A stretch of 64,000 nt of DNA from Strigamia acuminata (Eukaryota; Arthropoda; Chilopoda; Geophilomorpha; Linotaeniidae). Shown piece by piece: positions 3,241 to 31,200 of this stretch. The notes below the pieces were generated by a model that was not told where the DNA came from, searched no databases, and saw nothing but the letters and a program-made list of their open reading frames with translations. Where the stretch lies: assembly GCA_949358305.1 (NCBI GenBank), contig OX442317.1, forward strand, positions 15,566,491 through 15,630,490, read 5' to 3'. Positions within the stretch are counted from its first letter, which is position 1. Every line of letters begins with the position of its first letter. A program made the translations under genes and the position numbers.

Positions 3241-5114
3241 CTTTTTTTTGGTGGGAGCGATGTTGCGAGCAGAAACGCAACAGAAATAATGATAAGTTGA
3301 AGAAAGAACTTCGGTTCTTTTACCTGAGTCGATTTAGCCTCCACGTTGTTTTTCCTTTGTCGTAAACTATTCGAGTTTTTAATTATTGGTTGCAATATTT
3401 TGTAGCAGAAGCTTAAAGTCGTAGAATTTTCACCAGTAGTTTAAGATTCGGGCGTGTCGCGCCATCTAGCGACGAAGTTAGGCATCGGACTTATCTACAC
3501 AAAGAGAATTAAGGGTTTTTAATTTCGGTTCTAATTAATTTAGGCAAAGGTTTGAGGGACTTATCTGACTCGGTGTAGGCGAATAGTTGATCGCTGATCA
3601 AGAAGGTTAACAGCGACAAGCGGGATTTCAATCGGAAGGCGAAGTCGTTGTAGCTGATCGAGCGATCGGGTCTGGGTCAATGTTGAGCGCACTCATTAGG
3701 AAGTTGTGTTCAAACCTATCGAATTAAATAAGTAGAAAGTAATTCAGCACAGTCGATTATACGAATAGTTCTCGTTGTATTTTACCGTAGGTCGGGAGCG
3801 AAGACTTCGGCAGCATGTCGGGACGAAGCTTCGTTGCTCTTCAAGTGGTGTTGATCGGTTAGGGCCGCCATTGAGAGACAAGTGTCACAGCGAGCCTCGT
3901 TATCAATCGAGATTTATGTTGATTTAGTAAAGATTCATTCGTGTTCGGTTCTTATTGTGTGATTTTATCGAGATTTAGAATTATTTAGTTGTTTATTTAT
4001 TCGTTGATTTCGGTTCCGATCCAGATTCACGGGATAAGTTAGAGGTCACGTGATTTGGCAGAGTTTGCATCACTTTGTTCAAGTTCGGGTTTTGGGAAAC
4101 ACTCGGATATCATTGAATTTAGTTCAGGCGATGAACATTTAGTTCCGTGTCACACGAGTGAATAAACGAAAGAACACATTGAGCTTTGAGAATTAAATTA
4201 TTGGGTTTTACTCGTAATAAAAGCGTGATTGGATTTATAGTTCGAGATTTTGTTTGGGGTTTTAATTCAAAGTTCTTTCGGTAATTTTACGTCGCCGCCT
4301 CGCGGCAAAGTTGCGCAGTTTCGGGTTTTAGAGATTTCTCCTCCGTGTTCGTTGAGGAATATATTTTGGGGGTTTTTTGAGGTTTACACCTCATTTCGGA
4401 TCGATATTACTGTCATTAAATATTCTTTGGGGTCGAATATGTTTTCGGCAGTTTAATGTTCGATGTTAAATTAAGTTTTATGTATAATTTTGAGGTCTCA
4501 ACGGCTGTTACGATTTCGATATACGGAAGCCTGCATGAGACAGTGTTGATTGATGTATTATCATTTTATTGAGTCATTGGTGTGCTCGTGGCAGTTTCTA
4601 TTGTTAAAAAGGCCGTGACACGAGCTTTAGCCATTGTATAGTAGTAGTTTTAAGGATTTGAACAAGTAAACATCTTTTTATATTTGTTCCTTCAATTACG
4701 TGTCCTTTGCGGGTCGCGCGCGAGGTTTAAAAAGAGTCGCCATTTTGATTGTTCTCTTCTCGAATTTCTCCCAAGCCTTGCGAGATCAGTTTCAACGATG
4801 TTCCTTGCAAAGAACTATTATTTGAGTCATGAGAGTTTACTGAAACATACAGGATTACAGGAAATCTCGAATAGGATGAAATTGCAAACGGCTGAGTACT
4901 TCGAACCAACGAAATTGGAGCGTGCGGCGATAGGCACGAATTTGTATTACATGTCTCGCTGTGGTCCAAGAGCGGTCGCAACGACATGTTGCTGGAAACA
5001 GTCTTCTACTAGGTCCATTCTAGGAACTGGATACGCAGGACACATTTCGGATTAAGTCTTTTGACTGTAATCCGGAATTAGTCCAACTTTCAGTGGGTGG
5101 CGAGGGGTGAATAT
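3241..5114 (+). repeat. Decayed plus-strand BEL-type polypurine tract and 3' LTR
   Basis: Positions 3241-3282 read t-rich, then ggtggga, then the LTR start tgttgcgagcag…cgcaaca. On the minus strand, 17911-17950 (polypurine tract plus LTR start of element B) has the same arrangement with few differences. The LTR should extend right from 3261; its end is not clear. The rest, including a 123-codon ORF at 4684-5055, shows no domain I recognise. A second purine-rich tract (5091-5108) lies just before the insertion point of element A. Confidence 0.4.
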
Positions 5115-5620
5115 TGTTACGTGGCCAGACTGACTACTGTTTGACCACGTAAATACTTTATATCAAACTGGGGGTTTGTAATTGCATTAAGTTAAACTAG
5201 CATCTAAACTATGTTGCTAATAAGAAGGAAATGAAGAGGACTCATTGTATTATTATTAAAATATAACAGTATGTTTATTAAACCATAAATACAATCTGAA
5301 AACAAATATAATTTAACTTAAACTAAACTCTAAAACTATCTTAAGAATAACCTAAGACTAAATAAGCATGAATAACTTTTGGGGATGGGAAAACCTTGAG
5401 ATGCCACAGCAATAACTGCTTGTCAACCTCTGTGCCCATTTGGCTCTTGTCAAACCTTAAATCGAGCTCGATCGTTCTATTATTCGGTGATAGGTAAAGT
5501 CATTACCTCATCCGCTTAAGGCGGACTCTAGTGAGAGTTTTAGGGGTTATTCTCTAATGATTAACTACGGAAGCGAGGTGGCGACAGCTGATTCACAGCG
5601 TGCTCGTCCACCGCGTAACA
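5115..5620 (-). repeat. Element A 3' LTR
   Basis: 506 bp, left copy; because the element runs on the minus strand this is the 3' LTR. It is bounded by inverted TGTTA/TAACA ends and preceded (in element sense) by a polypurine tract at 5621-5632. It differs from the 14076-14581 copy at one base that I could see. Confidence 0.93.
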
Positions 5621-6124
5621 GCCCCCTCCTTTAGCTTTTTCGGACTCTCGAAAACAAAATACCTAAATAATTAACCCTATTAGCTAACCATGTTATTCAT
5701 GTTTATAAGTCTGTTTCCCATGTTATTCATGCTTTTACATAATTCACACTCTAATTCAAAACAATAAAATAATCAAACACAATTTCAAACTATGAAATCA
5801 AATGATATGTCAATTTCAACACAATACACTTTTTTAAAGATAACACTTTTTGATGTTTTTCTCACTTATATTAATTTTTTTGTTTACAGTTTTCCTATTT
5901 TCTATACAAACTAATAATTCAACAAAAAAAACAATATACACTACATTCAATATGAATGAAAATGAAAACAATAACAAAATCAAAAAAAAATAATATCAAC
6001 TTCAAAATAATGAAAGAAATACGATGTCTCTGCTCGCTCCAGTATACCTGGGCTCACATCATTGACAAAACAATAAAACAAATAATACAAAAAAAATAAT
6101 ATACACACAACACTTAATGTCCAA
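5621..6124 (-). other. Element A polypurine tract and 3' untranslated region
   Basis: On the minus strand, 5632-5621 reads aaaggagggggc directly before the 3' LTR, the expected plus-strand primer site for reverse transcription. The rest, between the C48 ORF stop and the tract, is A+T-rich with no coding potential. Confidence 0.75.
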
Positions 6125-7486
6125 TTAAGGTTGGTTTTCCTCCTTTTCGAATGGGATCAACTTCTCGTGTAAGATCTCGTACACTATACGCTGGCGCAAA
6201 TCGATGGGATGGCCATGGCGCATGTTGTCCCTGTCTTCGATATATCGGCGGGCAAAGTATAAGACAGTGGGCCCGCAGCTATCACCGTCAAGCTGTTGCA
6301 TGCGGGGCGGGTCCCACTTCTCATAGCCCCGTGGAAACACCATTCCAGCCCCGATAATACAATTATGCACTCGCTCCCAAGCAGGGCAACTAAAAGTGAG
6401 AACCCCGCTCGGATCGTAAAGCGTTACCTGTGTTGGAAATTTGGTCCAATCGACCACAAACAATTGCCAGTGATCGATTTCTGGTATTGGAAAAATCCAA
6501 ATTGACTTCCCATAATGGTCATGGGTTTTCTTCATCCATCTCCATGCTTCTGGAAACCGCTCAGCGTCTAGTATCATTTCGACAAAGTCGACTCTGACTG
6601 CCCATACTCGTTCGTTAAATTTTGCGAGCATTCGCAAATAATGGTCAATTACACTTGGATGAACCCAAGCCCTTTCACCTGGCGCAAGGTGTCCAAGAGA
6701 CGCCATTTCCCTATTGGTTATAATTATGGACGGGTCATCTGACATAGTTATCGCTGTTTCATGCTTTGGTCGATAACTAAAAGCTACCGTTGCTTCCAAC
6801 GCCTCCATCTGTTGATCTCCTTGTAAACGAACGCGATAGAGTATCAGTTGTTTTGGCAAAATTACACAAGGGTCTTCTTTATACTCGCGCCGCCCGAGCG
6901 CTTTCGCACGCTGGATATTGCGTCTGATCTTGGCCTCATACTGAAGCAATTTATCTGCCGCACGAAACCATGCTTCAAAGACCAACCGTCCATCAAGGCC
7001 TTTCAGACCTTTTTTCCTCACTTCCTCGGTCATACAGCGCTGCTCGACTCTAAGTTCTCCAAGACGCTTCTCATTTCGGGTTACTGTCTTCTCAGCCTGC
7101 TTCTTGATGACTTGAAGTCCTTTATTGGTGAATGCGCGTTTCTCCGCTGTATCCGCAGTTCGTCTTCTTTGCAGACAACGCTTACGCCGCGCTATTTTGT
7201 TTAGCTGCACAGTTGTCAATGGTGCATCATGCTCTTTAGGCCGCGCACCAAGCTCCTTTCGTTCGGAAAATGGGCGTTTAAATGTTACTAGCTCGGACAA
7301 TGGTTTAATAGGAACCGTTGCAATGTCTTCCTCCTCAGCCAAGACATCCAAATGCTCCAACTCTGAATTCCTATCATATAAATCGAACATCTGGGTTGAA
7401 ACCCCCGAACACACGGAAATATTGTCGTCTTCGTCTGAGCTGTCTTTCACGTCCATCCGACTAAATTTTCCCGTCATATCGTCCAT
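6125..7486 (-). CDS. Element A ORF3: Ulp1/SENP-like C48 cysteine protease
   Basis: 453 codons, uninterrupted, placed where env would sit in other Gypsy-group elements. The C-terminal third has the C48 (Ulp1/SENP) signature: His339 in an H-W-Q-L-F-V-V-D strand, Asp358 in L-Y-D-P-S-G, Gln398 in Q-Q-L-D-G-D-S-C-G and the nucleophile Cys404 in S-C-G-P. Spacing His-19-Asp-46-Cys fits the papain-like C48 fold, which cleaves ubiquitin-like modifiers such as SUMO. The N-terminal two thirds is charged, with Lys/Arg-rich helices around residues 95-210, and is not recognised. There is no signal peptide or membrane segment, so this is not an envelope protein. All four active-site residues are present; activity and substrate are inference. 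Expression could be from a subgenomic or spliced mRNA, which the sequence does not settle. Confidence 0.85.
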   Translation of the reverse strand: MDDMTGKFSRMDVKDSSDEDDNISVCSGVSTQMFDLYDRNSELEHLDVLAEEEDIATVPIKPLSELVTFKRPFSERKELGARPKEHDAPLTTVQLNKIARRKRCLQRRRTADTAEKRAFTNKGLQVIKKQAEKTVTRNEKRLGELRVEQRCMTEEVRKKGLKGLDGRLVFEAWFRAADKLLQYEAKIRRNIQRAKALGRREYKEDPCVILPKQLILYRVRLQGDQQMEALEATVAFSYRPKHETAITMSDDPSIIITNREMASLGHLAPGERAWVHPSVIDHYLRMLAKFNERVWAVRVDFVEMILDAERFPEAWRWMKKTHDHYGKSIWIFPIPEIDHWQLFVVDWTKFPTQVTLYDPSGVLTFSCPAWERVHNCIIGAGMVFPRGYEKWDPPRMQQLDGDSCGPTVLYFARRYIEDRDNMRHGHPIDLRQRIVYEILHEKLIPFEKEENQP

Positions 7487-8041
7487 TCAAGTCTAATATG
7501 TGCAAAAATAAATTTAATTAAAATTCATTAATGGCCAATACAATTCATGTTCACAATCAATTTGTCTAAATTTCATTAAATTTCTAACTTTATACAATAT
7601 TCAAATTTTTTCATCTAAACCAATTAAATATTCATAGCTATTTCTATTAAATTCTAAAATTAAATGCTAAGTTAACATTTCGAAAAATGTGCTAAGTTCG
7701 CTTTATTTGCTGGAAAAATGGCGATAGATTCGTTTCGTTTCGTTCACTCTCGGGACTTTTATTAATATCTTCCAAAATCCATGAAAAATGTCTTAAATCT
7801 CTTCAAATCATCGCGTAAATTCAAGTTATTCTTGGTTCACTGCAAATAACTTGCGTTCGCCTCGAAAAACAAGAAAATACAACATCAAAATCACATCACG
7901 TCTCGCCTACGTTCATTTCAACTTTCGTCAAACAAAAGTACCTACTTTCACCAAAACTACACAAAATCCTCGTCAATCACGTCTCGAATAACAGCAATTC
8001 CCTTTGCTCACTGCAAATAACTTGCGTTCACTCAAGGAAAG
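7487..8041 (-). other. Element A spacer between pol and ORF3
   Basis: About 555 bp of A+T-rich sequence without an ORF. It is the likely place for an internal promoter or splice acceptor for ORF3. A short near-repeat (ctgcaaataacttgcgttc at about 7841-7859 and 8010-8028) occurs twice near the pol end. Confidence 0.5.
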
Positions 8042-11000
8042 CTAGTAAAATGCAGTGTAATCCTGGCGTGGTTGCGATCTAAGTCGTCGTGACCGGAAAT
8101 CACTTTCAGCAGGACGTCGCGCATGCGTATCAGCGCTAACAGCACTTGCGACCCCTGGTGATGGTTTCTGCGACCATTTCTTGTTGGTTTCGCCTGACGA
8201 CGATTTTAGCAACTGATTTTGCTGTTCTAAATCAGCTTCCTTTTTCGCCCGTCGTTCCTCGATTTCTTTCGGCCCGTAAATTGCCTTCAGTCGCTCCTTT
8301 TCAGTTAGAACCGGCGAATCCGACGTTTTATCTCCGGATTCAAAAAAATTCCTCAACGAAATTTGATCATCATCATCAATAAACCTTTCCCTCGCTCCTA
8401 CTTTAGGCCTATCTCGCGGATCATCGTCCTTCTTCACAATTTCCGCATTTTGATCGTCTTTTTGCGAACTTCCTTGCACTTCATCAGAAAATGTTACTTT
8501 CTTTGGTGGTAAATCCTGCAGAATAGTTTCTGGAATTTCCTCTCTCGGCTTGTATGGTTTTAAACGCTCAACATTGACAATACTAGTTTTCTTTCCTGAT
8601 GAATTCCTCACTTCATAATCGTTTGGCGCTGTGCGTCTAACTATCTCATATGGTCCAGAAAATGGTGGCAGGAGTTTTTCGCTTAACCCTACTTTCCTAT
8701 TTGGGGTTTTCAAGTAAACTAGTTCTCCTGGTTCGAATTCAACCACAATTCTGTCCAAATCAAATCTTCTCTTGCTTTTCTCACTCTGCCATTCTAATCT
8801 TTCGTTGGCAATTTTCCGCATCTCCCGCATAAATCTAGAAGTGCGAAGAGTGAATTCCTTTCGAGGAAGGTTCAAGTTCACATCCACACTCAAATCAACT
8901 TCATAACCTTTCAACAGATAATATGGGGTGTATCCAGTTGTTTCATGGACTGCTGAATTATAGGAGAAAATGACAAATGGTAAAAATTCATCCCAATCTG
9001 TGTGATCTTTATTAGTATAACATGTCAACATTTTGGCAAACGTTGCATTAAATCTTTCCGTTAATCCGTTGGTCCTTGGGTGGTACCCGGAAGTAGACTT
9101 GTGCTGGGATTTAAACAGTGCTGATACCTCATTAATCATTTCATTCCTGTACTCCGTCCCCTTATCGCTGAGTATCTCGCGTGGACTTCCCTCTTTGAGC
9201 ATTACCTCGAATACAAGAGTTTTCGCTGCTTCCAACGCTGTACATGCTGGAGCCGCTCTGGCGATGACTGCACGCGACAAGTAATCAGTTATAACAAATA
9301 CAAACTTATTTCCACTATTTGAAACTGGAAAGCTTCCTAACGTGTCTATACCAATCCTCTCAAACGGTCTTGAAATCGTCGACCAAGGTTGTAATAAACC
9401 TTTTTGTGGAGTGGTCATTGACTTACTTCCTGCGCAATGTGGACAACTGAGAACGTAATTCCTTACGTCCCTGTATATCCTCGGCCAAAAGAATCTTACT
9501 CTAATTCTTTTCCACGTCTTATTTAGGCCGAGATGAGCACCTACGAGCCCGTCATGCATTTCTTCTAACACTTGCTTACGTAAATGCTGCGGTACTACTA
9601 AAAGGTTTCCTTCCATGTTTAGAGAATTGTAACTTTTCTTTCTAAACAATGTGTTATCCAGGAGAACGAACTGTTTTAAAGGACGTTTCCTGTTTCTTGG
9701 AAGTTGCTCAATGTTCTCCATTGCGGTGATGATCTCCAAAATTTTCTCGTCCTTACGCTGTTCTACAGGTAAGTTGAGTTTTTCGAGAAGTAGTAAGGGA
9801 ATAATTTCTTTTTCTTCCTCACCAATCTCTTCTTGGATTCGGCTAAGAGCATCTGCGTCCGTGTGCTTCTTGCCTGACTTATACATCACATCGTAGTCAT
9901 AATCTACCAGTTGTAAACTCCACCTGGCCAACCTACCGTTGGGATTTTTCACCTTACTCAGCCATTGTAACGCAGAATGGTCTGTCACTATTGTAAATTT
10001 CCTACCGTAAAGATATGGTCTGTACTTGTTAATGCCGAATATTATGGCTAAACATTCTCTTTCCGTAGCTGTGTAATTCTGTTCCGCTGTACTTAACATC
10101 GACTGGCGTAACAAATCACATGTTCTTGCTTGTTAATACGCTGCTTCAAAATTGCACCGAGCCCATAAGCACTTGCATCCGTAGATACAATGAATGGCTC
10201 TGCAAAATTTGGATGTGCCAATACTGGTACCGTAACTAAAGCTGTCCGCAAGGCCTTAAACGCTGTTTCCTGTGGTGGTCCCCAATCAAAAGCTTCATCT
10301 TTACGAGTCAAGTTGGCTAATGGCTTAGATACGTCCGCAAATCCTGGAATGAACTTACGATAATACGAACATAAACCCAAAAACCCTCTCAACTGCTTCA
10401 AATTTGTTGGTTTTGGAAATTTAGCTACACTTTCCAAATTACGTGGATCAGGTGACACTCCATCAGAATCAACTATGTGGCCTAAATATTTGATGGTATT
10501 AGTACCAAACGTACATTTGCTGAGTTTAACCTTTAAGTTTGCCAACCGCAGCTTGCTGAAGACAGCATCGAGATCCTCCAGATGCTGATCAAAAGTCTTC
10601 GAGAAGATTATAAGGTCGTCAATATAAGCTATACAGACCTTGCCAAGAAGATTACCAAGCACTTTGTTCATCAATTTTTGAAACGCAGCTGGGCTATTAC
10701 ATAATCCCATTCCTAGGACGTTAAACTCAAAATGTCCGCTTGAAGTGGTAAACGCTGTTTTTTCACGATCTTGTTCATTTATTTCGACTTGATAATATCC
10801 TTGAATAAGATCCATCATCGAAAAATACTGGGCCCCTGCCAGTTGATCTAAGGTGTCATCAATCCTGGGCAGTGGGTATACCATTTTCTTTGTGATCGCG
10901 TTTAACCTCCTCCAATCGACACAAAATCTCCATTTACCGTCTCTTTTCTTGATGAGTAGTACTGGTGCACTCCATGGACTTTCTGATTCCCTAATGACTC

Positions 11001-12066
11001 CCATCTCAAGCAACTTTCTGGTCTCTTCTGCCTCTACTTCTTTTTCTGCGATTGAACGTCTATAAGGCTGCAAATGTATTGGATCATGGTCCCCCGTATC
11101 AATTTTGTGTTTAAATGTTGTTACTCTACCTAAGTCTTTGTCTGTGGCTGCAAATCTATCCTGATTCCTTTGAAGTAACTCCTTCATCCGCTCTTGTTGG
11201 CTTTTAGTCATCTTATCTTTAGCAATTGAGGAGTCAAAGTCAAAGCAACGCACTTGCTTTTCTTCTGTCAACTCAACCGCTTTGGTTGAGGAGTCAGAGC
11301 AATGCACTTGCTTTTCATCCAACAACCCAATCTCAATAATGTAATACGCCTTACCAATTGCAGATTTCTCCTTCAGAAAGACTGATTTGTTTGTTGGATT
11401 AGCCACACGCAGAACTCCTTTACCATACTCAAAATTTGTTAATGTTTTACAACACAAAATTCCAAACCTATCTATTACATTACCTAGAGGTTCCATAAAC
11501 ATTTCTGTGGTTAATTTTGTATTTAAATAAACTGGTATAACACATTCATGCATTGGTGGAATTGAAACATTCTTCATCACTCTGGCGACATAACTCTGGT
11601 CCGAAAATGATCTATTTATTGGAAAAACTGCTTCTTCTACTCCACTAACATTGTTCCGGCCCACAAAGATTTTTTGTAAATCATAATCGACGACAGTTCT
11701 CGTTGACCTCATGAATGGATCCCCCAATAAAAGCTGATGATGAAATCCTGACACTATTAACACTTCCACTCTATAGGTCAGTTTTCCAATTGCAATGTTC
11801 ATTTTTGTTTTACCCACTGGAACTACCAAATCCTTTCCTATCCCACGTAGCCTAATGTTAGGACTGAAGAGCTATTGCAACTTCCTCACTTAGAAGGTTT
11901 CGTTTGGCTCCAGTATCCATTACCGCTTTTATTTCCATTTCTTTTACAATTACTGGGATCTCCAACAATGACTCCGATACCTGAACGTCAATTATAACTA
12001 TCTTACTCTTCTTCTTTTTTCTTTTCCTTTTCTTTGGGTGGCAACAATTTCTCTGTGGCCGTTCAA
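8042..12066 (-). pseudogene. pol: Element A pol (PR-RT-RNase H-IN), two frameshifts
   Basis: Gypsy-type pol. The protease motif D-T-G-A lies at about 11905-11920, in the -1 frame relative to gag, so a -1 gag-pol shift is plausible. A first break near 11868 moves the frame; the reverse transcriptase (11829 downward) then runs open with F-S-M-M-D-L and the Y-I-D-D box at about 10615-10628. A second break near 10103, within the early RNase H region, returns the frame to that of the protease. The 690-codon piece from 10114 to 8042 has RNase H (T-D-H-S-A-L-Q-W-L), an HHCC integrase zinc domain, the integrase core with Asp in I-G-I-D-T, Asp in L-S-D-K-G and Glu in L-T-E-R-F-N, and a GPY-type C-terminus. 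The two shifts compensate, so the parental frame was single. As it stands no complete Pol can be made without frameshifting. Confidence 0.88.
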
Positions 12067-13416
12067 CTAGTTTTTCGAATTTTGGGCCTTCGTTTGTGCC
12101 TGAGGATTAGGGTTTCCATCTTGCTGTTCACCTCTTCTCCTCTTTTTATTCCACTTCCAGCTGTTACTTCCACCTCTTTCCTGTTGCTGTTGTTGCTGTT
12201 GTTGTTGTTGCCTGGGTGGATTGTAAAACTCACAACTGAAATGATGATAACATCCGCATGAACGGTTATTAGAATTATTACTATTGTTAGTATTATAATT
12301 ATTGTAATTAGGATTAAAGCCTTGTCTTCCACCTCTACTTCTACCTCCTTGATTATACTGTCCCCTATTCCTTATTGGCGCATACCACTGATTCTGTATC
12401 AGTATCGACTCTTCATCCAGCAAATCCACTGACTCTGCTTCTAACAATCGCTGTTTTAACTCAGCGACTTCAGCTATTAACTCAGCGTGGGTTGGTTGGG
12501 TCCCCACAGTTCCACTCAGTTTACCTGCTGTTACCGGGATCACCTTCTCATCCACGATTTTTTTAAACGCTGCAAGTAGAACATCTGCTGGGTCTTTTAT
12601 CTTGTGACTTTCAAATAACTTAATTCTCTCTTCCATATCCGCCAAAGTCTTCGGGAATACAGTAATCAACATTTTTTGCATTTCCGGCTTCAATCCTTGA
12701 AAAATGTAATTAATCTTCAAATTCTCAGGTAATTCTGGTCGCGCATAAGCACATTCGGCCAAGACTTTCTTCATAAACGCATCGGCTTTACCATCTGAAT
12801 GCCTCATAAAATGAAGAGTGTTCAATACATTTTCCTGGCTCTTCCTGAACTTCTTTTCGATTTGTGGCTTCCATTCCGTCCAAGTCCAGGTTGGATTCGT
12901 TTTATATTGTTCCACAAACCATGCCAGTCCGTCAGTCTTAAGGGCTAACGGCAATTGTTTCACTCGTTCATCATCTGATGCTATTGTAGCTTCATAAGCC
13001 ACCAGCCATTGGTCAATGTTACCTTTTTCCGTATCATAACAAACAACTTCGCGCTTTTGTATCAAAATACCCTTGAGAAGATCAGTTAAAACTGTTGTTG
13101 GATCCGCCATCTTGGATACAGTTCCTTTTGATGTGGATTCCTTTAATTTTACTGGTGTTAACAATTCAAATACTGATTGAAAAGACTTCGATTGCGCAAA
13201 TTTTAATGGGGTTGCAAAAACAAGTTTATCATCCAATGTGGAAGTATTTTGCTCAACCTCCTTTATTCCAGGTTCCGACTGTGAAGTTGTTTTCCTTTTT
13301 CTAACCGCTACTTTGGAATCATCCACTGTGCTTACTAATTCTCTTTCTAATTCTTGATTCTTTAAGTCCAGTAGATTATCCACTTGCGCCTGTGATAACT
13401 TAACTGGCTGATCCAC
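12067..13416 (-). CDS. gag: Element A gag
   Basis: 449 codons. A retrotransposon-gag core lies around residues 130-275 (motifs G-L-A-W-F-V-E-Q-Y and F-M-R-H-S-D-G-K-A-D-A-F), the capsid-like assembly region. The C-terminus is Asn/Gly/Arg-rich with a run of ten Gln (CAG/CTG repeat, about 12182-12214). A single short Cys/His cluster (S-C-G-C-Y-H-H-F-S-C) replaces the usual C-x2-C-x4-H-x4-C knuckle, so nucleic-acid binding probably relies on the basic tail. The start at 13416 is the first ATG of the open frame. Pol begins in the -1 frame at the gag stop. Confidence 0.88.
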   Translation of the reverse strand: MDQPVKLSQAQVDNLLDLKNQELERELVSTVDDSKVAVRKRKTTSQSEPGIKEVEQNTSTLDDKLVFATPLKFAQSKSFQSVFELLTPVKLKESTSKGTVSKMADPTTVLTDLLKGILIQKREVVCYDTEKGNIDQWLVAYEATIASDDERVKQLPLALKTDGLAWFVEQYKTNPTWTWTEWKPQIEKKFRKSQENVLNTLHFMRHSDGKADAFMKKVLAECAYARPELPENLKINYIFQGLKPEMQKMLITVFPKTLADMEERIKLFESHKIKDPADVLLAAFKKIVDEKVIPVTAGKLSGTVGTQPTHAELIAEVAELKQRLLEAESVDLLDEESILIQNQWYAPIRNRGQYNQGGRSRGGRQGFNPNYNNYNTNNSNNSNNRSCGCYHHFSCEFYNPPRQQQQQQQQQQERGGSNSWKWNKKRRRGEQQDGNPNPQAQTKAQNSKN

Positions 13417-14075
13417 TGTTAAGCCTTTAATTATACCTTCACTTTATTCACACAACGCTGTAGCAACTCACAACTTTCACTAACCCTGAAATAAACTTAT
13501 GCACAATTAATTATCACAATTAGTCACTAATTCAAAGTAAATTTCAACAAAATCAAAACAATAAATTATTTTCTGAAAAATAATCAAAATTAATCATCAA
13601 AATCAACATAAACTTCTACATAAACCAAAAAGAAAACATTTCCTATAATTAAATCATTATTAATATAAGTTTTATCATTAAACAAACATTGAATATTCAC
13701 CACTCTTAACCTCCAAAACAACCTCATTTTATTATATAAATTCAACTTGGGTAAATATCTTTAATAAATTCAAATATGTAAATCTTATTAGTGCACTATA
13801 ATTAAATATTCAACTTCAATTGACTTTAAAAGAAAGTTTTCACAATGAGTCACCTTTCAATCTTATCACTCATGCAAATGAGTTTGCAACTTTTCAAAAT
13901 TTTATATGAATTTTACTTGAATTTTACTGAATTTTAATGCAAATTTGTACGGATTTCAAATGGATCTCCTAATTTTAGCAAATAACTGGCCAATTTCACT
14001 TTACTTTTACTACTTTTCACTACTTTTAGCCAATTAATGGGTCTCAAATAGAAAAAACCGCAATCTCCACCACTT
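13417..14075 (-). other. Element A leader and primer-binding site
   Basis: A+T-rich leader between the 5' LTR and gag. Three bases inside the LTR, the minus strand from 14072 reads TGGTGGAGATTGCGG, the position and TGG start expected of a tRNA primer-binding site. I could not assign the tRNA species with confidence. Confidence 0.6.
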
Positions 14076-14581
14076 TGTTACGTGGCCAGACTGACTACTG
14101 TTTGACCACGTAAATACTTTATATCAAACTGGGGGTTTGTAATTGCATTAAGTTAAACTAGCATCTAAACTATGTTGCTAATAAGAAGGAAATGAAGAGG
14201 ACTCATTATATTATTATTAAAATATAACAGTATGTTTATTAAACCATAAATACAATCTGAAAACAAATATAATTTAACTTAAACTAAACTCTAAAACTAT
14301 CTTAAGAATAACCTAAGACTAAATAAGCATGAATAACTTTTGGGGATGGGAAAACCTTGAGATGCCACAGCAATAACTGCTTGTCAACCTCTGTGCCCAT
14401 TTGGCTCTTGTCAAACCTTAAATCGAGCTCGATCGTTCTATTATTCGGTGATAGGTAAAGTCATTACCTCATCCGCTTAAGGCGGACTCTAGTGAGAGTT
14501 TTAGGGGTTATTCTCTAATGATTAACTACGGAAGCGAGGTGGCGACAGCTGATTCACAGCGTGCTCGTCCACCGCGTAACA
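14076..14581 (-). repeat. Element A 5' LTR
   Basis: 506 bp, right-hand copy; this is the 5' LTR of the minus-strand element and should hold its promoter. It is followed by the target duplication ATAT at 14582-14585. Confidence 0.93.
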
Positions 14582-16165
14582 ATATCAGATGTGAAATTTA
14601 TACATAATTCAACAGAATTATGTAGTAAACTAGTTAAAAACAACTTAAAATATATTAAATAACTGTTTAAACTTGAAACAGACTAAAATATAAATAGCAA
14701 TTTATATTTTAATTACTGTGTTTCTGGCAAGGTCGCAGGCGACAACCAAGCCAGGAGGAGGGGCGGCAATCATTGACTGCTGCTTGGCACAAAATTGATA
14801 CACGGAAATTGGCCAAAGACCTGAAGAAATGTAAAGACTAGAATTGAACTTGCTGTTTCTCATGGTGATCTGCCACTGGTGAGTTCAAGGAGGAGGAAGG
14901 AGGATTTCTCTACTCACTGCACATTGTTATCTGGTTGGGTAGAGAAATAAGATTTGGAGAGAAGAAAAACACGTCCATTTTAATCTCTAAAATCAATAAC
15001 AAGTGTAACAAATACTGCATGAGCAGAACAAAGGCAGGTTGCACTTAACAACCGACAGGCAACAATAAGTGCAATTACAGAGTCATTATCTCAGGGCAAA
15101 TGCACTTAAATCTACAGTAATCTCCAAGTGATTTCATGGAGGAAAAATACAACTGTTACCACAGAAATTCCGTATATACAACTAAATGTAAGAAATTAGG
15201 CCTAACAGTTGAAAATTCATCTTAAATGTAATAAAAGATCAATTCTGACAATACCTAGATTAGTCACTTATTACATAGCAAATAATACAGTGAAAACTCA
15301 GGCAAAACACGGATAATAGAAGGAAAAGAATAAGTATTAATAATTTCTTCCAATGAGCAAACAGCTTTGAATTGAATGCGGTAATTTACATCATAAAAGT
15401 AACACTGTTTCTATTAAAACTTAATATTAATTCACTACCAAATATATAACTGATTAGTTAATAGTTAACAACTTCAAAGACCCACAATTATATAAATTGG
15501 TTCACAACTATACAATTAATAGTAAGACACACGCACTGTAATGGCGGACGACTGGTCGAGCAGACGACGCAAACGGGACAAAGACTGTTGAATTAAGTTC
15601 CCTAGACAGGTGAGAATTAAACCAATGTAAAGACACATTTAACAGGCTTGTAAACATTAACTAAAGGAGGTTTTTGACTCCAGACAGGACCTTGTACGAC
15701 TCTGCCAATGCGACAAAAACGTGCACACACATTAAAGAGATCGTTAATGCCAAAAACGACCACACACAACTGATTAGAGCACAAACCGGGCAACGCCGTG
15801 TTTTGTGCGGACACTAAATATTCAGCAAAGGTTAGTGAGAATAAATACAGACTCGAAAATGAGTGAGATAGCAAGAACTTGCTAATAACAAACATTTCTG
15901 ACTTCCAGTTCACTATTGCCGCCTGATCTCGTCATGAAATCGAGTCATTACAATTACGGAAATGAACTGGGAAACGAATATTACACAAAGACAGCAGAAA
16001 TAACTGCTTTCAATCAGAAAACAGACAAACACACGATCAATAACATACAATTATGACATTGACTAACAAAGGATTAATTTCAGGAAATTAAATTGACACA
16101 TTGCAACTTCTAACGTTGCTCACTACAAAATGCGAGTAAACTATTCTTTTATGTTGCACGCAACA
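14582..16165 (-). repeat. Diverged BEL-type LTR, copy ii
   Basis: Ends at 16165 with the family signature tgttgcacgcaaca (16152-16165), read on the minus strand as the LTR start. Landmarks resemble copy iii: a tctctactcac motif at about 14908 (16440 in copy iii). The distance from this motif to the signature is similar in both once the MITE is removed. No coding sequence seen; the 98-codon ORF at 15617-15913 has no recognisable features. This is the older sequence into which element A inserted on its left side. Confidence 0.4.
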
Positions 16166-18155: not shown

Positions 18156-19151
18156 TGTCGCGCTCAACTCGGTCTGTCGCTGATACGTGGTATGAGTCAC
18201 TCTCTAATCTCGCAATACCGCTTTGCTCAAGCGGTTACCCAAATAATGTGAAACGGCAAACAATGTAAAATGGTAAATATAATAAATGTATTTATTATAC
18301 GGGAATGTACAGGTAAAAGGTATAAAATATGTAAAGGAATAAGGGTAAAAGGTAAGGTGTGTGAAGTTGGCGGGAAACTGGTCGAGGTCGTCCTTTGTTG
18401 GCGCTCTGGATCCAAGATGGCGTCCGCGTGGCAACGTGGTGTCGTCTTGGGCCGGCGTGGCAATGAATGGCGTCCTCGTCTCACGTTTCTCGTTCGGTCC
18501 TTCGGGCTCACGCTGGTCGGGCGCGAGTGAATGCCTGAAAGGTCTTACTTCTGGTCTGTTGTCTAGGTTTAGGGTTTTTTGTAGGTGTCCGGCGATCACA
18601 CAGCGGCGGACGCTTGGTGGTTCCCGGCGATACACACAGCGGCGGGAACGCTCGTCGTGGTTACTGCAATTTAGGCTTGTGCGACCGTTTGTCTGCACAA
18701 CTCGCTAAATTGGAGTAGGTTTACTATTTCTAGCTGGCTTGCTAAAATAGTGTGGTAATCTTGTTTCGCAGGTTACTCTGCGGAGGTTAACACAAATCAA
18801 TCGTACTCACGTTGAAAGTCCCTTGTCCTAGGTCACTCCTGAAGTCTTTGTACTTAGGCTTGATCGTTTTAGGACGTTTGGCTTTTACGTGTATCTTGGT
18901 TGATTTTTGTGTTGGTTCTGCCCGCTCAGTGCAAGGCGAATTCCTTTGCACAAAGCGGGGGGTGACAGGTGACTAAAGCCACCCAATAGTGGAGAAGACG
19001 AATCTCCCCCACTCCCCCAGGGCAGACGCCCGTCCATTGACTGGAAGTCAATGCTCTGAGGGAAGGGAGGCGCGCGTGCGACTCCCCCTTTTTACCCGTA
19101 TGTAGGCCACGAGAGAAACTCTTCGTGCCCCACCCCAGTCGGGTCACCACA
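18156..19151 (-). repeat. Element C 3' LTR
   Basis: 996 bp, offset exactly 24153 from the 42309-43304 copy; ORFs within both copies translate identically. It inserted in B pol. The several overlapping ORFs of 60-164 codons inside the LTR occur on both strands and are probably chance. Confidence 0.93.
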
Positions 19152-19190: not shown

Positions 19191-22100
19191 TCAATCCTTC
19201 TTGCTGGGACCCGACGCTGGATCCATCACCTGGGCGAAACTCACTCCAGGGACGGGCGGCTCAGCGCCGGGCGGCACAACGCCGGGCGGCAAAACCAGAT
19301 CTCCAACCAAGGCTGAAGTCTGGTCGCGGGGGTCCTCGTGCTCGGAAATAAAGCACAATTCGTGGCCGCCGGCTGGCTCGTACGGGGCACGTCTCCTCTC
19401 ATGCAGCCAAACCCGCGGAATGAACGCCGAAAACCCGGAATTGGTGTGCCGGATCGCGTTCGCCTCCGCGGCCGTTCGAGGCGCACGGTGGGCCCTCAGC
19501 AAACGCTGATGGAGGATCAAATCGGTGGTCTGGCGCACCTGGTTGTGTAGCCAAACGAATACCGATTTCCCCTTATCTCTCTGCGCGAGGATGAATTTGC
19601 GCGTCGCCGTCGTCATCGACAGCTGAGAGAACTCGTCACACAACTTCTCATAATAGTTCGTCTGAGGCTTCGCCGCTTTCGCTGGCTTGGCGCTCTTCGG
19701 AACTACCGCTTGCTGGACAGTCTCTTCCCGCGCTTTTTGGGCTGCGGGAGGCGTCAGGCTCTGGCGAGCGGCGGACATCGTTGGTGGCGTCCGACATAAC
19801 AAGCGTCTGGGCTTACCCGCCGCATTCGATAGGACGGGTGTCTGTGGTGCCGCCGCTGGTGGCATCGGTGGCGGCGGCGGAGGTGGAGTCGGGGCTCCAC
19901 GTGAAGCAGTCGAAGAGGCGGCGTCGCTCTCCATCGGCTCCTCACTCGTGACCATCATTGCGTGTGGCTGCGCTGACGGTGTTGACTCCCACGTGGTAAC
20001 AGCGTGGCGGAAGGCCATGCTCCGCAACTTATACCCCTCCCACTCGGGGTTCACCACGTCCCGGGTCAGCTCGAAACGAGTCATCGCCGGGTTGGGGAGA
20101 ATGGCGCTCCATTCCCCAACGAGTGCGCGAGGTATCTGCACACCCTCTCTGTCTACTACGGACCAACAGGCCATCGCCTGTCGTCCGACCCCAAAGAGCG
20201 AGGGGGTCAATAACTGGACCATGATTTTTGTCAAAGCCAGCTGTAGACTGCGCCGATTTACAGGGTTGCTGCGATCAGGGTCTGCAGCGAACGCACGCGA
20301 GTGGTGCCGCATCATCGAAATCCCCCACTCGATGAAATGGCGCTGAGTGACGTCGGCGCCCTGCAGAGCAGCGGCGGCGGCCCTCGGGTCCTCCATCACA
20401 AATGCGAAGGCCAAGAGCTCTTCGATCGATGGATTGGCTGCTTCTCGAGCCAGTCGTGCGTTTTCGTCACGCTGTTCATACCACATCGCGGTGCGGTCGT
20501 GTCTTGCCTTGCTCGGGTAATATTCTCCGAATCGGGCGTTATGACATTCCCGCGCAATGCTCTGGTGCACGGGTAACATTACCGAGTTGTCGACGGCCAA
20601 GTCCGGCGTAGTGCTCGAACCCGGCATCGGCGGCGGCGGCGGCGGCTGCGTCGGCGGCGGCAGCGTCAATGACTGCTGTGCCGGCAACGGTTGCGACGTC
20701 GATGACTGCGTCGGCAACAGCAACGTCGAAGACTGTTGTGCTGGCGGCGGCAGCGTCGATTGCGCCTCAGTCGTCGTGACTTGAGGCGCCGGGGCGGGCG
20801 TGACGGTGCTCGTCGGCGGAACGACGGCCGTGGGTCGCGAATTCACATATTCGCTTAACCACCGTGCCACTTCGTGTGGAATCACGGTACCATCCTCGAC
20901 GATGCCCATCTTGCGGGCGAACTGCATCGCGGGGTCGAAACGCGACAATTTCTTGCGTTTCATCTGAGTGATGATCTCGCGAAGGTCCCGCGTGTCTGGC
21001 GCTAGGACGCGACGCTCCCCGGAAGATCTGCCACTCGACTTCGATCGTGCTTCTCTCGCTCCCTTCGCTTCTATTGCTTTGAGAGCGTGATCGGGAAGGG
21101 GAATTCCCCGCGCCTCGCAGCGAGCGAAATGTAGGTGAGTGGTGCGCAAATAATCGGCAAATGAACCGATGTGGAAGCGTGAAATAAAGCGGTTCGCAAA
21201 TGCGCGACGGTTAATTCCGATAACAGAATCGCGTGATGCGATTCGAGCGAGCGCGTGATGCGATTCGAACGAGCGCGCGACTTATGGTCGCTTATATGCG
21301 CTTAAATAGCACTGAAGGTGCTCTAAAGTGAAGGTAAACACTTAAAAACATAAAAGTTTAATGAAAAGTAAACCATATCTTACATAAATGAATTTCCAAA
21401 GGTGAAAGATGTGAAAGTGCACACACCTGTGTGCGCTGCCATCTTGGATTCGGGGTAAGAGTGTCACAGCACTCTGGTGACAGTTATTAACATTAAGTTT
21501 TAAATTAAAGAATAAATCATCCAAGTAAAACATAAGCAAAGTATGGAATTACATACTGGACAGCAGAAATTAAATCCAAATAGAGAAAACAGTAAATAAA
21601 TGATCAAATATCAATACAATGTGTTTGAACACAAAACATATAGTATATAAACATTTGATATCGACAACAAATTTGGTCTTAGAAAAAGAATAACAGCGAT
21701 CCTATCAGCGAGCGGTATGGAAAATCTTCCAAATTCTCGGTCGATCCTCGGAATCGGATCCTCTTGGCCAGTCATGGAACTGGACGTTGTCGTTAAACGA
21801 AACCGATTGCTGTCCGACATCAGAAAAAGTTTCTTCGGGCCGTTGAGATGCGCCACGAAGAGATTTCCGATATGATTGGCGTTCATCGATCTTGACGTGA
21901 ACCGTTTCGTAAACTCGATCTTCTACCGGATTCCAAACTCTATATCCGCGGGTACCAGTCGCGTAACCAACGAGATATCCCTCCCATGCACGCGGATCTA
22001 GTTTCTTGCGGCCTGGCGCGGTGTAATGCACCCAGCATTTGGACCCCATTTTGCGTAGGTGTCGTAAAGACAATGCTCGTTGTCGCCATAGGATATACGG

Positions 22101-25100
22101 AATTTGGTTATTCAATCTCGAATGCGGACTTCGGTTCTTCACATACGCGAAAGTAACTGCGAGTTCCGCCCAAAGGTCGTCCGGGAGTTGAGTTTCGGAG
22201 ATAAGAGATCGGACACTGTCGGCCATTGTTCGATTTATGCGTTCTGCAGTGCCGTTCATTTGAGGTGATGCAGGATTGGTCCTCTGCCCTTGGATGCCCT
22301 TTTCTTTGAGGTAGTTCAAGAATTCATTCGACATGAATTCGCCTCCGCGGTCGGATCTAATCGCTTTCACACGCGTATTCTGAATTCGTTCAACGCGGGC
22401 GACGAAGTCTTTGAATGCCCCAAAGGTTTGCGACTTCTGGGCCAACGGGATAATCCACGTGTAACGTGTGGCATCGTCGATGATGGTGAAAACATAATCC
22501 GAGCCGCCCAGTGACGTGAGCGGGGCTGGTCCCCACAAATCCATGTGCAGAAGGTCCAATGGTTTCGATGTACAGGGATTCGGGTCCGGTTTATGTGAAG
22601 CTCTGGTCGATTTAGCAATTCTGCAGTCGTTACACGACAATTCTTGTCGGACTTCAGCTGGTTGCAGACCATAAACCTGGTCGTTAGCTGCCAGAAGCTT
22701 CATTGCATTAGTATGCAGGTGACCGAGTCGACTGTGCCATAGACCGGTGGCATCTTTAACCGAAGCAGGATTAGCAATTACCTTTTTCTGTGACGGAGGT
22801 AAATTGCCGGGATGAGGGGAAGTTGGCAGGAATTGCAGAGCATTGGAATAGGATTGTGTGGTCGGATTGACAATGACCGGTGGAGGAACGGGAGTAAGGA
22901 CAGGAAAATGTGTAGGATCGGTCAGGTTTGGAATTGGTTGGGCGGGAATTGCTTTCACACTCTCAACCGCTGGCGGATCAAAACGATAGTCCGTAATTTC
23001 CCGTTGCTTTCGTTTCCCTTTAACCGGTTTCGGAACATTGTCGAAATCCACTTCTGTCGTGACCAGTGTTTTAACAGGTTGAATTGTCGGTGGAGTGGCC
23101 GTCGAAACCGTTGTCGAACTGATGGGAACCGAACACAAACCGTCCAAATAATACAAGCCACCACGTTCCTTTGCACGAATGATTGGCAGACGATAGTCCG
23201 ATTCATAAACATTAACTTCTCCGTTGAAAATGTGGATATGATGTCGCGTTTTATCGATTTTCGACACCGAAATCAAATTGGCTTCGAAATTCGGCGCATA
23301 TAGAACGTTGGTCAAATCCAAAACGCAATCTGCATCATCAACTGACGTGAGAAGTTGAACCGTTCCTCGTCCAGTAACTTGCGATTTGCCTTGGCCCAAT
23401 TCGATATCGAAAGGCGGAATGTTCGTGAAATCGGTGAATAACGCTCGCACATGGGTCACGTGGTCGGTAGCGCCGCAGTCAACAATCCACTCATTGGATT
23501 GCATAAAGTGGGCAACTGGGCGCTCAATGACTTGCGGTGCACTGCAGAAAAATGTCCCTTTCCGAATTGGACGTGAGCTCCCTCGAGGACGAGTGTCTTC
23601 GACCTTGGCGACGGCGTTCTTATTCCGTCTTCGACTCTTACTTCTCGATGAGCGTTGTACGGAAACCGTCGGCTGATTCGGATTTTCACGTCGAGGGTGG
23701 GGGCACTTATTCGCGTAGTGGCCCATCTGTTCGCAATTGAAACACCGAATAGTTGACAAATCACGAGCACCAGATTTATTACGCGGGCGAAACTGTCCTT
23801 TCGCAGAAGTATGAGCCGTCGGTGGAGTTGTTCGGAGCAGACCCACTGATCTTAAACGAGATTGTTCGGCTATTAACTGTTCCGCAACTAAAATCGGGGT
23901 AAATTTGTCATCCGGCCAATGGTAGATTGCGAAAGTTGCCTGGGCATACTCAGGTGGCAATCCCTTAAGGTATTGATATGCGTGATGATCGGCCGAAGTT
24001 TCTTCTTTGACGTCCTTTAATTGCCTGACAAAGTGGTCCACTCGGGCAATGAAATCCGGCATGTCTTCGTTGGGTCCGATCTGGAGGTTTAAAAACTCCC
24101 AACGCATGGCTGCTCTTCTAGCCCGTGAGCTTGGCGCATAAATCTTAGCCAGCGCGTCCCACGCCTCCTTCGGCGTATTACATGTGTCCAACACTGATCT
24201 TTTGGGCTCGCTGACTTGGATATAGATGTGACCGAGGGCTTTATCTTTCTTGGTCATGTACCGGTCTTTCTCCTTTTCACTTAAAGTTAGTAAATGTTCG
24301 GCTTCTTTCTCTTCGGTAACATGCCTCCAAAGGCCCTCGGACTTTAAGAGCATCCGCATCGATCGTTGCCACTGCTCGTAGTTTCCAACTCCGAGTACGG
24401 GAATTTTGCTCGATGAATCTCCGGATTTGTGCATCGTGGCGTAGAAAACTCGACACTCCGCGACGAAAACACAGGCTCAGAGAAATGGTACACACGAGAC
24501 ACCGTAGCACTGCACGAAAACGAAGCACAACACTCGATGCGAAGCACTTTCGAGGCGGAAACCGTCAAATTGGGCAATTCCTTCTGAAGGAATTCAAAAA
24601 CCTCCGGTAGCCAGTCTGAGAGGGTCCGATCGGTGCACCTGGGCCCGCGGGAAACCTCACTTGTACCACGACAAGCACTACCGGAGAATACGTAATCGCT
24701 TGATCGGATTCGATCGAAGGGCGAATACGATGCTAAATGTCCCCCAAAAGCCTTAAATTCTACCTTAAAGTTAACAATGTAAATCGACAAGAAGGAGAAA
24801 TAGATGAATCGGTCGCGGGTGCAACTCTCGTGCAAATGAAGGCACGGCGCAGCTTTCTCGAAAAGCTGGAGAAAACGCAAATTCGGATTTAAAACCCGAA
24901 TTCTTCTCGAAAAAATTCGAGGCTCTTCGTGAAAATGTTCTAAAGATCGGTGATTACGACCGTTCACCGGGGAACTAAGCCGCCAATAATCTAGTATTGG
25001 ATTCTCGTTGTATCCGCCGCAACGTGCTAAGCGGAGAAGTGAATCCAGATTGACGAAAAACCTGAAAAAAACAAAAATTTGTCGCGAAATTCGCGAATCC

Positions 25101-28204: not shown

Positions 28205-31200
28205 CTACTCCTTTCCTACGACCTTTCCGTCTTTTATAAACGGATTACTTCTACGAGGCCGCAGGTGATGAGTCGAGACAGGTACGACGTTTTTTTTTGT
28301 TGTTTTTTGTGTCTGTACCTCCTCATGTGTATTTCTTTTTTTATCCGTGTTTTTTGTGTTTGTTTCAGGAGTTTCTCCTGTTTCCCCCCCGACCAAAATT
28401 GGATCCGGAACGGATTCAACTATCTCGTTTACCGGAGGTGAAGGGGCGTCGAAATACTCCTCGTTGTCACTTGGCGGTGCTTTTTCCGACTCGCCAGCGA
28501 ACATATCGACGATTTGGCCGTCAGTTTTAGACTTGACTTGGCCTTTGGCCCACAGTTCTTGCGGGAATTCCGGGATGTACGGAGTTAACTCTCGTACTTG
28601 TATCGACTTATGCTCGGTATTGTCCTCGAGCTTACGTAATTTATACGCGTTACCGCCATGCTTGTCGATGATCACATACGGACCATCTCTCTTGTCGGCC
28701 AAGCTGGCGGTGATTCCTCTCGCTGCATTTGAGAGGATGTGTGTGTCCTTCCACACTAAATCATTGATCTCGAAATTCACAAATTTTCCACCGCTTTTAT
28801 CTTGTAAAATGCGGTCGCGCATGTTAAAAATGTGCGCCATCATATGCTTGTATGTGTTTGAAATTGTTTGCTCCAATTTATACACGTACTCATGTGGTTT
28901 CTCGGGGTCCACCACATTTACCGACTCTGCCACTCGTGGGTCCCAAGGCACTCGTAGCTCTCGGGCGAAGTTGAGGTAGGCCGGAGAAAAATCTCTCGTC
29001 CTCGAGACTGTTGTTCGTATGCTGAACGCGATCTCCCTCAAGTATTCATCCCACCTATTGTGGATGTCAGTGAATATGCTTAGTGCATATTTAATGTCCC
29101 TGTTGAGTCGCTCAACGGGATTTGTTCTGGGATTGTAGGTCGAAGTATGTGACGCCACAATTCCGAATTTCTCACAAAACTTACCCCAAATTTTCGAGAT
29201 AAATTGGGGTCCGTTATCGGATATAATTTTACGTGGAAATCCGTAACGTAACGCTACGTCGTAGATACATTCAACGATTTTTTCTGCTGAAGGTCTAGCG
29301 ACGGCGTACAACTCGGGCCAACGAGTCGCCACGTCCATTATTACGATAATGTACGCATTTTTATTTCCCGTAACGGGTTTTGGGCCCATCACATCGACAC
29401 TTAAACAATCAAAAGGCGCGTAAGGCCCTAAGAAAATAGTTTCGAATGGTGATTTACTCCTCGGCTTGCACGCTTGGCATCGCTGACATTGGTGGACAAA
29501 AAGAGCAATATCTTTTTTCATCCCTGTCCAGTGAAAAAGCTGTGTAGCACGATAGAGTGTTCTGCTTACTCCCGCATGGCTCGCAAGCGGGTGCCCGTGT
29601 AACAACCACAGCACGCGACCGATTAAGGAAGCAGGTATTACTACCTTTACTGCGGTGTCTGATTCACTCAAGTCATCTTGGTGATTTGGGTGATGTTTCA
29701 CCAAAAGGCCGTCATCCAATAGGTAATCTATGGATTCGTGTGCATAGCGACGCTTCTGCCTTCTGGTTAAGTTGGGCGGATATTTTCCTGTCAGCACGAA
29801 TCTAGCTCTGTCCTGACATTTTTTGTCTAATTTTTGTTGCACAATTATTTCCTCCCTTGTCGGGGGATTGCTTCGCATTTGCTTGCCGACATGAGCGTGG
29901 AAGGCACTTAGAAGCGGGTCATTTATTCTCCGCTCTAGCTTAAATTCCTTCTTTGCATCGGGGTAATTGTCAGCAGCTGGTTGGTATAACCGCGTCCAGA
30001 ATCCACAGAATTTTACATCTGCTGGAGACGTGGTAGGAATTTCATTCATTTTCCTTAAATCCCAACGGTGACAACTCGTCGGGCAGTAAATGATGCGGGA
30101 ATCATCCTCGCCATCATCGTCAGCGTCGATTGGATCTGACACTGGTGCCCGTGATAGAGCGTCAGCCACGACGTTATATTTGCCGGGCTTGTATTGAATG
30201 GTCAAGTCGCATGCCATCAGTTCTAACTGCCATCTGGCTAGTCGACCGGCTGGCTCCTTTAATTTCATCAGCCATTGTAACGCTTGATGATCTGTGTGGA
30301 CTACGAATTTGGTATATTCGAGATAATCTCTGAATTTCCTTATAGCCCACACAACTGCCAAACACTCCAACTCTGTGGCGTTGTAATTTTTTTCAGCGCC
30401 TTGGAGTTTGCGACTTATAAACATGCACGGCAGGTCTTGTTCGACTCCGTCGCGCACGTGAGTTTGGAGCAACGCGGCTCCTAACCCAACTCTGCTGGCG
30501 TCCGTATGTAATATGAACGGCCGGTTTAAGTCGGGTAGAGGCATTACGCCGACTTCCGTCAGCATCCTCTTTATCGCATTAAAGGCGATGTTGCACTCAT
30601 TTGACCATACAAATTCGTTTTCATTCTTCAGGAGGTCGGTAACTGGGGCTGCCACTTCAGCTAGACCCGGTAGCAACCTGCCGAAGAAGTTTATCATTCC
30701 CATAAACCGTTGGACACCTTTAACGTCCTCGGGTGGTGGGAAACGATTAATCGCATCAATTTTTTCGGGGCCAATAGCTAAACCATTGACTCCAATGCGA
30801 TAACCCAGGAAGGCAAGCTCCTTTCGACAGAACTTGCTCTTACCCGGGTGCACGTGTAACCCAGCTTTTGCCAGCCGGGTGAGCACTTGGTCGATGTGCT
30901 CAATGTGCTCTTCGAATGTTTTGGAGGCAATAACTATGTCATCTAGGTATGCCCACACAAACTGATGCAGGATATCACCCAATACGCTTTCGATTAGTCT
31001 CTGAAAGGTACTGGGAGCGTTCACTAAACCAAATGGCATGACGTTGAACATCAACCGTCCAATTGGCGAGTAAAATGCTGTTTTTAACTTATCCTCTGGC
31101 CTCATCTCAACTTGCCAGTATCCCTTCGACAGATCCATCGTCGTAACCCAAGAAAAGGGGCTAAGCTCTCTCAAAATGGATTCGATAGACGGCATCTGTA

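Follow-up and report, generated by a model that had tools for sequence, protein, structure and literature searches.

A C48 protease-like third open reading frame is a lineage feature of Ty3/Gypsy elements in the Strigamia acuminata genome

A gene for a C48 protease-like protein is a lineage feature of Ty3/Gypsy retrotransposons in the genome of Strigamia acuminata. It is described here from a stretch of 64,000 nucleotides (the window), in which it forms the third open reading frame (ORF3) of one element. The encoded protein is homologous to C48 proteases, the gene lies behind pol, it is under purifying selection, its active site is invariant in the intact copies, and subfamilies of the element have deleted it.

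The window element is read from the minus strand and is bounded by a 4-bp target-site duplication, ATAT, which has no strand of its own (14582-14585 on the 5' side and 5111-5114 on the 3' side). Its two long terminal repeats (LTRs), the 5' LTR at 14076-14581 and the 3' LTR at 5115-5620, both on the minus strand, are 506 bp each and have the termini TGTTACG...CGTAACA. They are identical at 505 of 506 positions, and one difference per 506 bases indicates a young insertion. A polypurine tract, AAAGGAGGGGGC, lies beside the 3' LTR (5621-5632, minus strand). The gag frame (12067-13443, minus strand) is named by its position, given no Pfam match was obtained for the codons searched (12070-13416). 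The pol gene of this copy is split into three minus-strand frames: a first piece containing an aspartic protease DTGA motif (11858-12106), a second with the end of the protease (by reading), the reverse transcriptase (PF00078, E = 7.1e-37) and the start of RNase H (10093-11871), and a third with the remainder of RNase H and the integrase, including its H2C2 and rve domains (8042-10114). The LTRs, the gag frame, the order protease, reverse transcriptase, RNase H and integrase, and the H2C2 and rve domains identify the element as Ty3/Gypsy. The original prediction of a complete Gypsy element is thus correct in that all modules are present, but it needs qualification with regard to pol, which is broken in the window copy; in a sister copy on contig C6, pol is a single frame of 1360 codons. 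A pattern search for the tRNA primer yielded 62 matches against 23 in a reversed control, and none was resolved as a tRNA gene.

Between pol and ORF3 lies a spacer (7487-8041, minus strand), whose last bases, next to the ORF3 start codon, are a T-rich stretch followed by an AG, a putative splice acceptor. Among the 17 copies and the window sequence read, the same arrangement directly precedes the ORF3 ATG in most clades and is absent in the copy L100. This makes a spliced ORF3 mRNA plausible. The SL1 spliced leader had no match in the genome at up to one mismatch, a result that speaks against a nematode host.

ORF3 (6125-7486, minus strand) begins with ATG and runs for 453 codons with no internal stop, between the integrase and the 3' LTR, just as had been predicted. 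The four residues originally assigned to C48 motifs are also in place: His339 (6470-6472) and Asp358 (6413-6415), both catalytic, Gln398 (6293-6295), which would form the oxyanion hole by analogy, and Cys404 (6275-6277), the nucleophile. All belong to a C48/SENP catalytic domain covering residues 253-444 (6155-6730), with domain and codons on the minus strand.

The expected match to the Pfam C48 profile was obtained in part: PF02902 matched the single ORF3 sequence with E = 0.0074, but the score of 16.6 bits is below the curated gathering cut-off of 20.7. Seven of ten family members match PF02902 at E ≤ 1, the best with 1.2e-4. The C48 identity is confirmed by comparison with proteins of known structure. 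When phmmer was applied to ORF3 against the PDB, residues 248-444 matched SENP1 with E = 9.9e-9, and a profile of the ten family members yielded SENP1 (2.9e-11), SENP5 (2.8e-8), SENP2 (1.7e-6), SENP3 (6.8e-6) and yeast Ulp1 (1.1e-4). With XopD, these make up the profile matches, and no viral protease is among the 17 PDB sequences listed. A genome-wide Pfam C48 search (237.5 Mb, 157 contigs) returned 29 matches, and the window ORF3 is not one of them. Given this absence, ORF3 is a divergent C48 member that would be overlooked by a Pfam search alone. Trp274 and Trp340 of ORF3 align with two tryptophans of SENP1 that line its Gly-Gly tunnel. The N-terminal half (residues 1-245) is also conserved and has no Pfam match of its own. 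Two single-sequence structure models of the protein had a mean pLDDT of 39.7 and 39.1, too poor for use. Protein searches of a 5.8-billion-sequence set, made with the window protein and with alignment A1, led nowhere, as did a viral contig search.

Two other identities for a third frame were considered. Since none of the four ORF3 proteins checked has a strongly hydrophobic segment (maximum 19-residue Kyte-Doolittle mean of 0.71-1.22), ORF3 is not env-like, and this low hydrophobicity together with the C48 homology rules out a membrane glycoprotein of the errantivirus type. The proposal that the enzyme stands in place of env is right as to position only. A replacement of the retroviral protease by the C48 enzyme is ruled out by the aspartic protease motif present in pol.

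The ORF3 protein has at least 95 matches in the host genome, from 474 candidates of which 93 were scored, and this number, across many copies, rules out a one-off insertion. The 90 loci that were read account for 91 of the 95 matches, and two of the other four fall inside loci that were read; some of the loci represent fragments of a single ORF. Among the 90, 66 are stop-free over at least 430 codons and encode 51 distinct proteins. At 80% identity these intact copies form seven clusters, whose representatives are 32-76% identical to one another. Trp274, His339, Trp340, Asp358, Gln398 and Cys404 are kept in all 66 intact full-length copies. As for the other 24 loci, 16 have all six residues, two do not cover them, and in six at least one of them is affected by a gap, a stop or a substitution. 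Changes at catalytic residues are confined to L094 (His) and L095 (Cys), both of which are copies with stops.

The position of the gene is shared as well. At 31 of the 33 ORF3 loci with flanking sequence (L009-L038 and L099-L101), a Gypsy-type integrase lies upstream on the same strand, so the frame does recur in the same place in other Gypsy copies, as had been anticipated. Every one of the 13 near-full-length window-family copies has the integrase upstream. Its match is absent at L023, a locus that starts inside ORF3, and at L028, and is merely short at L029. In L099 and L100, which represent two further clusters, pol is open over a long distance in the sequence read and is followed by an intact ORF3.

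The dN/dS test proposed for these copies indicates strong purifying selection. Pooled pN/pS values for ORF3 are 0.083 for 12 window-family copies, 0.073 for a set of 37 copies and 0.145 for a set of seven, and the window-family pairs listed present a dN/dS of 0.04-0.18. A young pair, L026-L027, with 12 differences, has a dN/dS of 0.39, and of the six changes in its N-terminal half five are residue-replacing. Between the main ORF3 clades, synonymous sites are saturated, which in combination with the low pN/pS means ORF3 has long been in use as a protein. In the same ten copies, pN/pS is 0.087 in ORF3 and 0.264 in about the last 310 codons of pol, yet this comparison is not clean, given the two genes have different histories (synonymous divergence of 0.236 in ORF3 versus 0.117 in pol).

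Such different histories are also seen in other comparisons. Between clades, ORF3 is more diverged than the integrase, as in L009 versus L099 (41% versus 67% identity), and the pair L027-L031 presents a pS of 0.36 in the integrase versus 0.80 in ORF3. In comparison with the window ORF3, L018 begins with 98-99% identity, falls to a minimum of 78% in the middle and returns to 98% by the end, and L011 is 81-89% identical early and 98-99% in the middle. We read the mosaic in L018, L011, L027 and L031 as recombination and exchange of ORF3 among related elements.

The loss of ORF3 from many copies with intact pol was not foreseen by the original prediction, and it means the gene is not needed by every copy. 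A pol search gave 6462 candidates, of which 64 were scored, and ORF3 was taken as present when a listed match lay at most 3 kb downstream. At least 40 pol copies are 89-100% identical to the window's, with ORF3 present in 16 and absent in 24. In a clade whose pol is 74% identical, ORF3 is present in 22 of the 24 copies listed. The downstream DNA was read in 26 copies, namely all 24 close ones without ORF3 and two of the 74% clade, over 0.9 kb each in 18 cases. Twenty of the 24 have the spacer that normally precedes ORF3 joined directly to the end of ORF3 or to the sequence behind it. These 20 present four distinct deletion junctions, placed with blastn precision, in four, six, four and six copies; no junction was recognised in the other four of the 24 (L118, L124, L125 and L126). 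The two ORF3-less copies of the 74% clade yielded a recognisable stretch only from the region behind ORF3.

Given each resolved deletion type was found several times, copies without ORF3 have spread. The 1360-codon pol frame is kept in 18 of the 24 copies without ORF3 and in nine of the 16 with it. In other clades, 27 relatives with pol frames of 1309-1317 codons are listed; six of them have a listed ORF3 and 21 have none, although, the ORF3 list being a lower bound, diverged genes that escaped scoring may be present among these 21. Together, the 24 of 40 close copies and the 21 of 27 relatives without a listed ORF3 show the gene is facultative rather than strictly needed. The naturally occurring copies that have or lack ORF3, whose pol is about 89-100% identical to that of the window, make the effect of ORF3 testable.

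The nearest relatives of ORF3, the SENP and Ulp1 enzymes, remove SUMO, while proteins with a C48-like fold can also cut viral polyproteins and modifiers other than SUMO. Conservation of the active site speaks for catalysis. The explanation we prefer, and regard as evenly poised between right and wrong, is that ORF3 is a captured, separately expressed and trans-acting SENP/Ulp1-type deconjugase that relieves SUMO-dependent control. Its activity, expression, substrate, nuclear target, benefit and sharing are what we infer here. According to this explanation, a C48 protease gene would have been captured and then kept as an accessory gene by a multi-clade Ty3/Gypsy lineage. ORF3 would most likely be translated from its own, spliced mRNA, and its product would act in trans in the host cell, freeing host repressors of the element from SUMO or a SUMO-like modifier. 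Such deconjugation would raise the transcription or the cDNA integration of related copies. If the product is shared, gene-deleted copies would profit from copies with ORF3 and could still spread. Free sharing of the product would not alone account for the strong selection on the copies that keep ORF3, and hence carrying ORF3 has to benefit the copy or lineage concerned at least some of the time.

In yeast, according to PMC8585004, Ty1 RNA increases after inactivation of Ubc9 or of Siz1 plus Siz2, and Ty1, Ty2 and Ty3 RNA increases in most of the Nup84-complex mutants tested, in which the tethering of Ulp1 is lost. The Ulp1-tethering mechanism was worked out there for Ty1, and the authors conclude decreased SUMOylation activates Ty1 (PMC8585004). 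By analogy, an element-encoded deconjugase could act like reduced SUMOylation does in yeast. These data also make the original proposal, that the element may deconjugate SUMO to escape silencing or to aid integration, more plausible. Since SUMO conjugation represses Ty1 (PMC8585004), a deconjugase carried by an element would be a direct molecular hint of a SUMO arms race. A broader proposal, which we advance only tentatively, is that a diffusible SUMO protease may be an anti-silencing public good, which selection maintains in helper copies while several deletion subfamilies, their pol intact, exploit it. This would be a producer/cheater system within one genome and the first LTR retroelement found with its own SUMO-deconjugating enzyme.

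Two alternatives retain the catalysis and change the target. ORF3 may be a maturation or virion protease that cuts the element's own Gag or other proteins instead of host SUMO conjugates. Adenain-type relatives serve in this manner in some DNA viruses, C48-like enzymes include viral maturation proteases, and the retained Trp274 and Trp340 would be compatible with cleavage at a Gly-Gly-type site of whatever protein. We consider this unlikely, given the single long pol frame of the lineage retains an aspartic protease motif and the 17 PDB sequences matched by the profile include no viral protease. The multiplication of deletion copies with intact pol would also be harder to explain if the enzyme were needed in each particle, although packaging in trans is possible. 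Alternatively, ORF3 may act on integration or particle traffic, aiding the pre-integration complex by deSUMOylation of Gag, integrase or nuclear import factors while silencing is unaffected. This is compatible with a SUMO protease and a shared product, and sequence data cannot separate it from the preferred explanation. It is nonetheless singled out by no sequence evidence, and the yeast data indicate transcription (PMC8585004); we therefore judge it improbable as well.

A C48 fold that binds without cutting, as a reader of SUMO or ubiquitin, would agree with the conservation of the N-terminal half, but it is very unlikely given every catalytic residue is invariant in the intact copies. That ORF3 is a recently transduced host gene fragment, a passenger without a role, might be suggested by its loss in many copies and yet is hardly credible, being contradicted by seven clusters with identities as low as about 32%, by dS that is saturated from one main clade to another, by pooled pN/pS of 0.07-0.15 and by an active site unchanged in 66 of 66 intact copies.

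In comparison with known systems, ORF3 resembles the C48 proteases SENP1, SENP2, SENP5 and yeast Ulp1 in its H-D-Q-C residues, in the Q-x5-C spacing and in the two tryptophans (from the SENP1 alignment). It differs from the SENP/Ulp1 proteins in its Gypsy carrier, in the conserved 245-residue N-terminal half and in a Pfam score that is below the cut-off for the single sequence. Ulp1 domains occur in Ginger1 and Mutator-like DNA transposons, which are likewise mobile with a C48 domain, and the Ginger1 transposase resembles Gypsy integrase (PMC2836005). Those are cut-and-paste elements with terminal inverted repeats and a protease domain at the transposase end (PMC2836005), whereas the ORF3 element has LTRs, a reverse transcriptase and the C48 protein as a separate ORF, and thus falls outside both groups.

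LTR retrotransposons of bdelloid rotifers also carry an extra enzyme ORF behind pol, in some families but not in others. However, these ORF3s encode a GDSL esterase, a DEDDy exonuclease, coiled-coil, transmembrane or env proteins, and the article contains neither 'Ulp1' nor 'C48' (PMC5408684). The giant Gypsy element Burro of planarians has ubiquitin-related domains, one of them SUMO-like; unlike ORF3, they are fused in a giant polyprotein, and the text again has neither term (PMC6431247). An orchid Gypsy element with an m6A demethylase ORF provides a captured host-like enzyme in an additional ORF retained over replication rounds, although its enzyme is an RNA demethylase and its host a plant (PMC9289625). 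In the literature covered here, C48 domains are described in Ginger1 and Mutator DNA transposons, and LTR elements are described with other enzyme ORFs (PMC2836005, PMC5408684, PMC6338049, PMC6431247, PMC7264820, PMC9289625). No LTR retrotransposon with a C48 ORF was found in the literature searched, seen in part and with Repbase and subscription journals outside its scope. A conserved, separately encoded C48 protein in an LTR retrotransposon lineage is therefore unmatched in that literature, C48 being known from DNA transposons.

The ORF3 family was also compared with eight C48 loci of the host genome (L001-L008). Similarity was weak, with E-values of 4.2e-5 for L004, 1.4e-4 for L002, 0.0037 for L005, 0.0058 for L001 and 0.035 for L006-L008, values which refer to a tiny database of these eight loci with filters off, the other 21 Pfam C48 places being outside the comparison. 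An origin from L001-L008 was therefore set aside, and no donor is named. L001 itself reads as a SENP1-like host gene in several exons and is a possible natural competitor or donor. L006-L008 and three further Pfam C48 places have equal C48 scores and a 1075-codon frame. L006-L008 are identical in the part compared and appear, by reading, to be Mutator-type transposase-like, so that this genome would hold another mobile family with a C48 domain, separate from the Gypsy lineage.

Open retrotransposon frames are abundant in the remainder of the window. By reading, these include an intact Copia-like polyprotein of 1606 codons (33343-38163), a related shorter Copia-like frame of 909 codons on the opposite strand (21705-24434), a further Gypsy-like pol of 1276 codons (28205-32035) and a BEL/Pao-like polyprotein of 1787 codons (43079-48442). 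A 164-codon minus-strand ORF occurs twice with the same translation, about 24 kb apart (18204-18698 and 42357-42851), probably as parts of repeat copies. A coding-like tandem repeat with KEMAVEETVSETEKEK units has several frames open (49460-50638), and a piggyBac-like transposase piece was recognised from its translation (60675-61541). In the genome as a whole, (TTAGG)n arrays, which suggest an arthropod, gave 18,704 matches against 10 in a reversed control, with the first listed at the very first base of contig C1.
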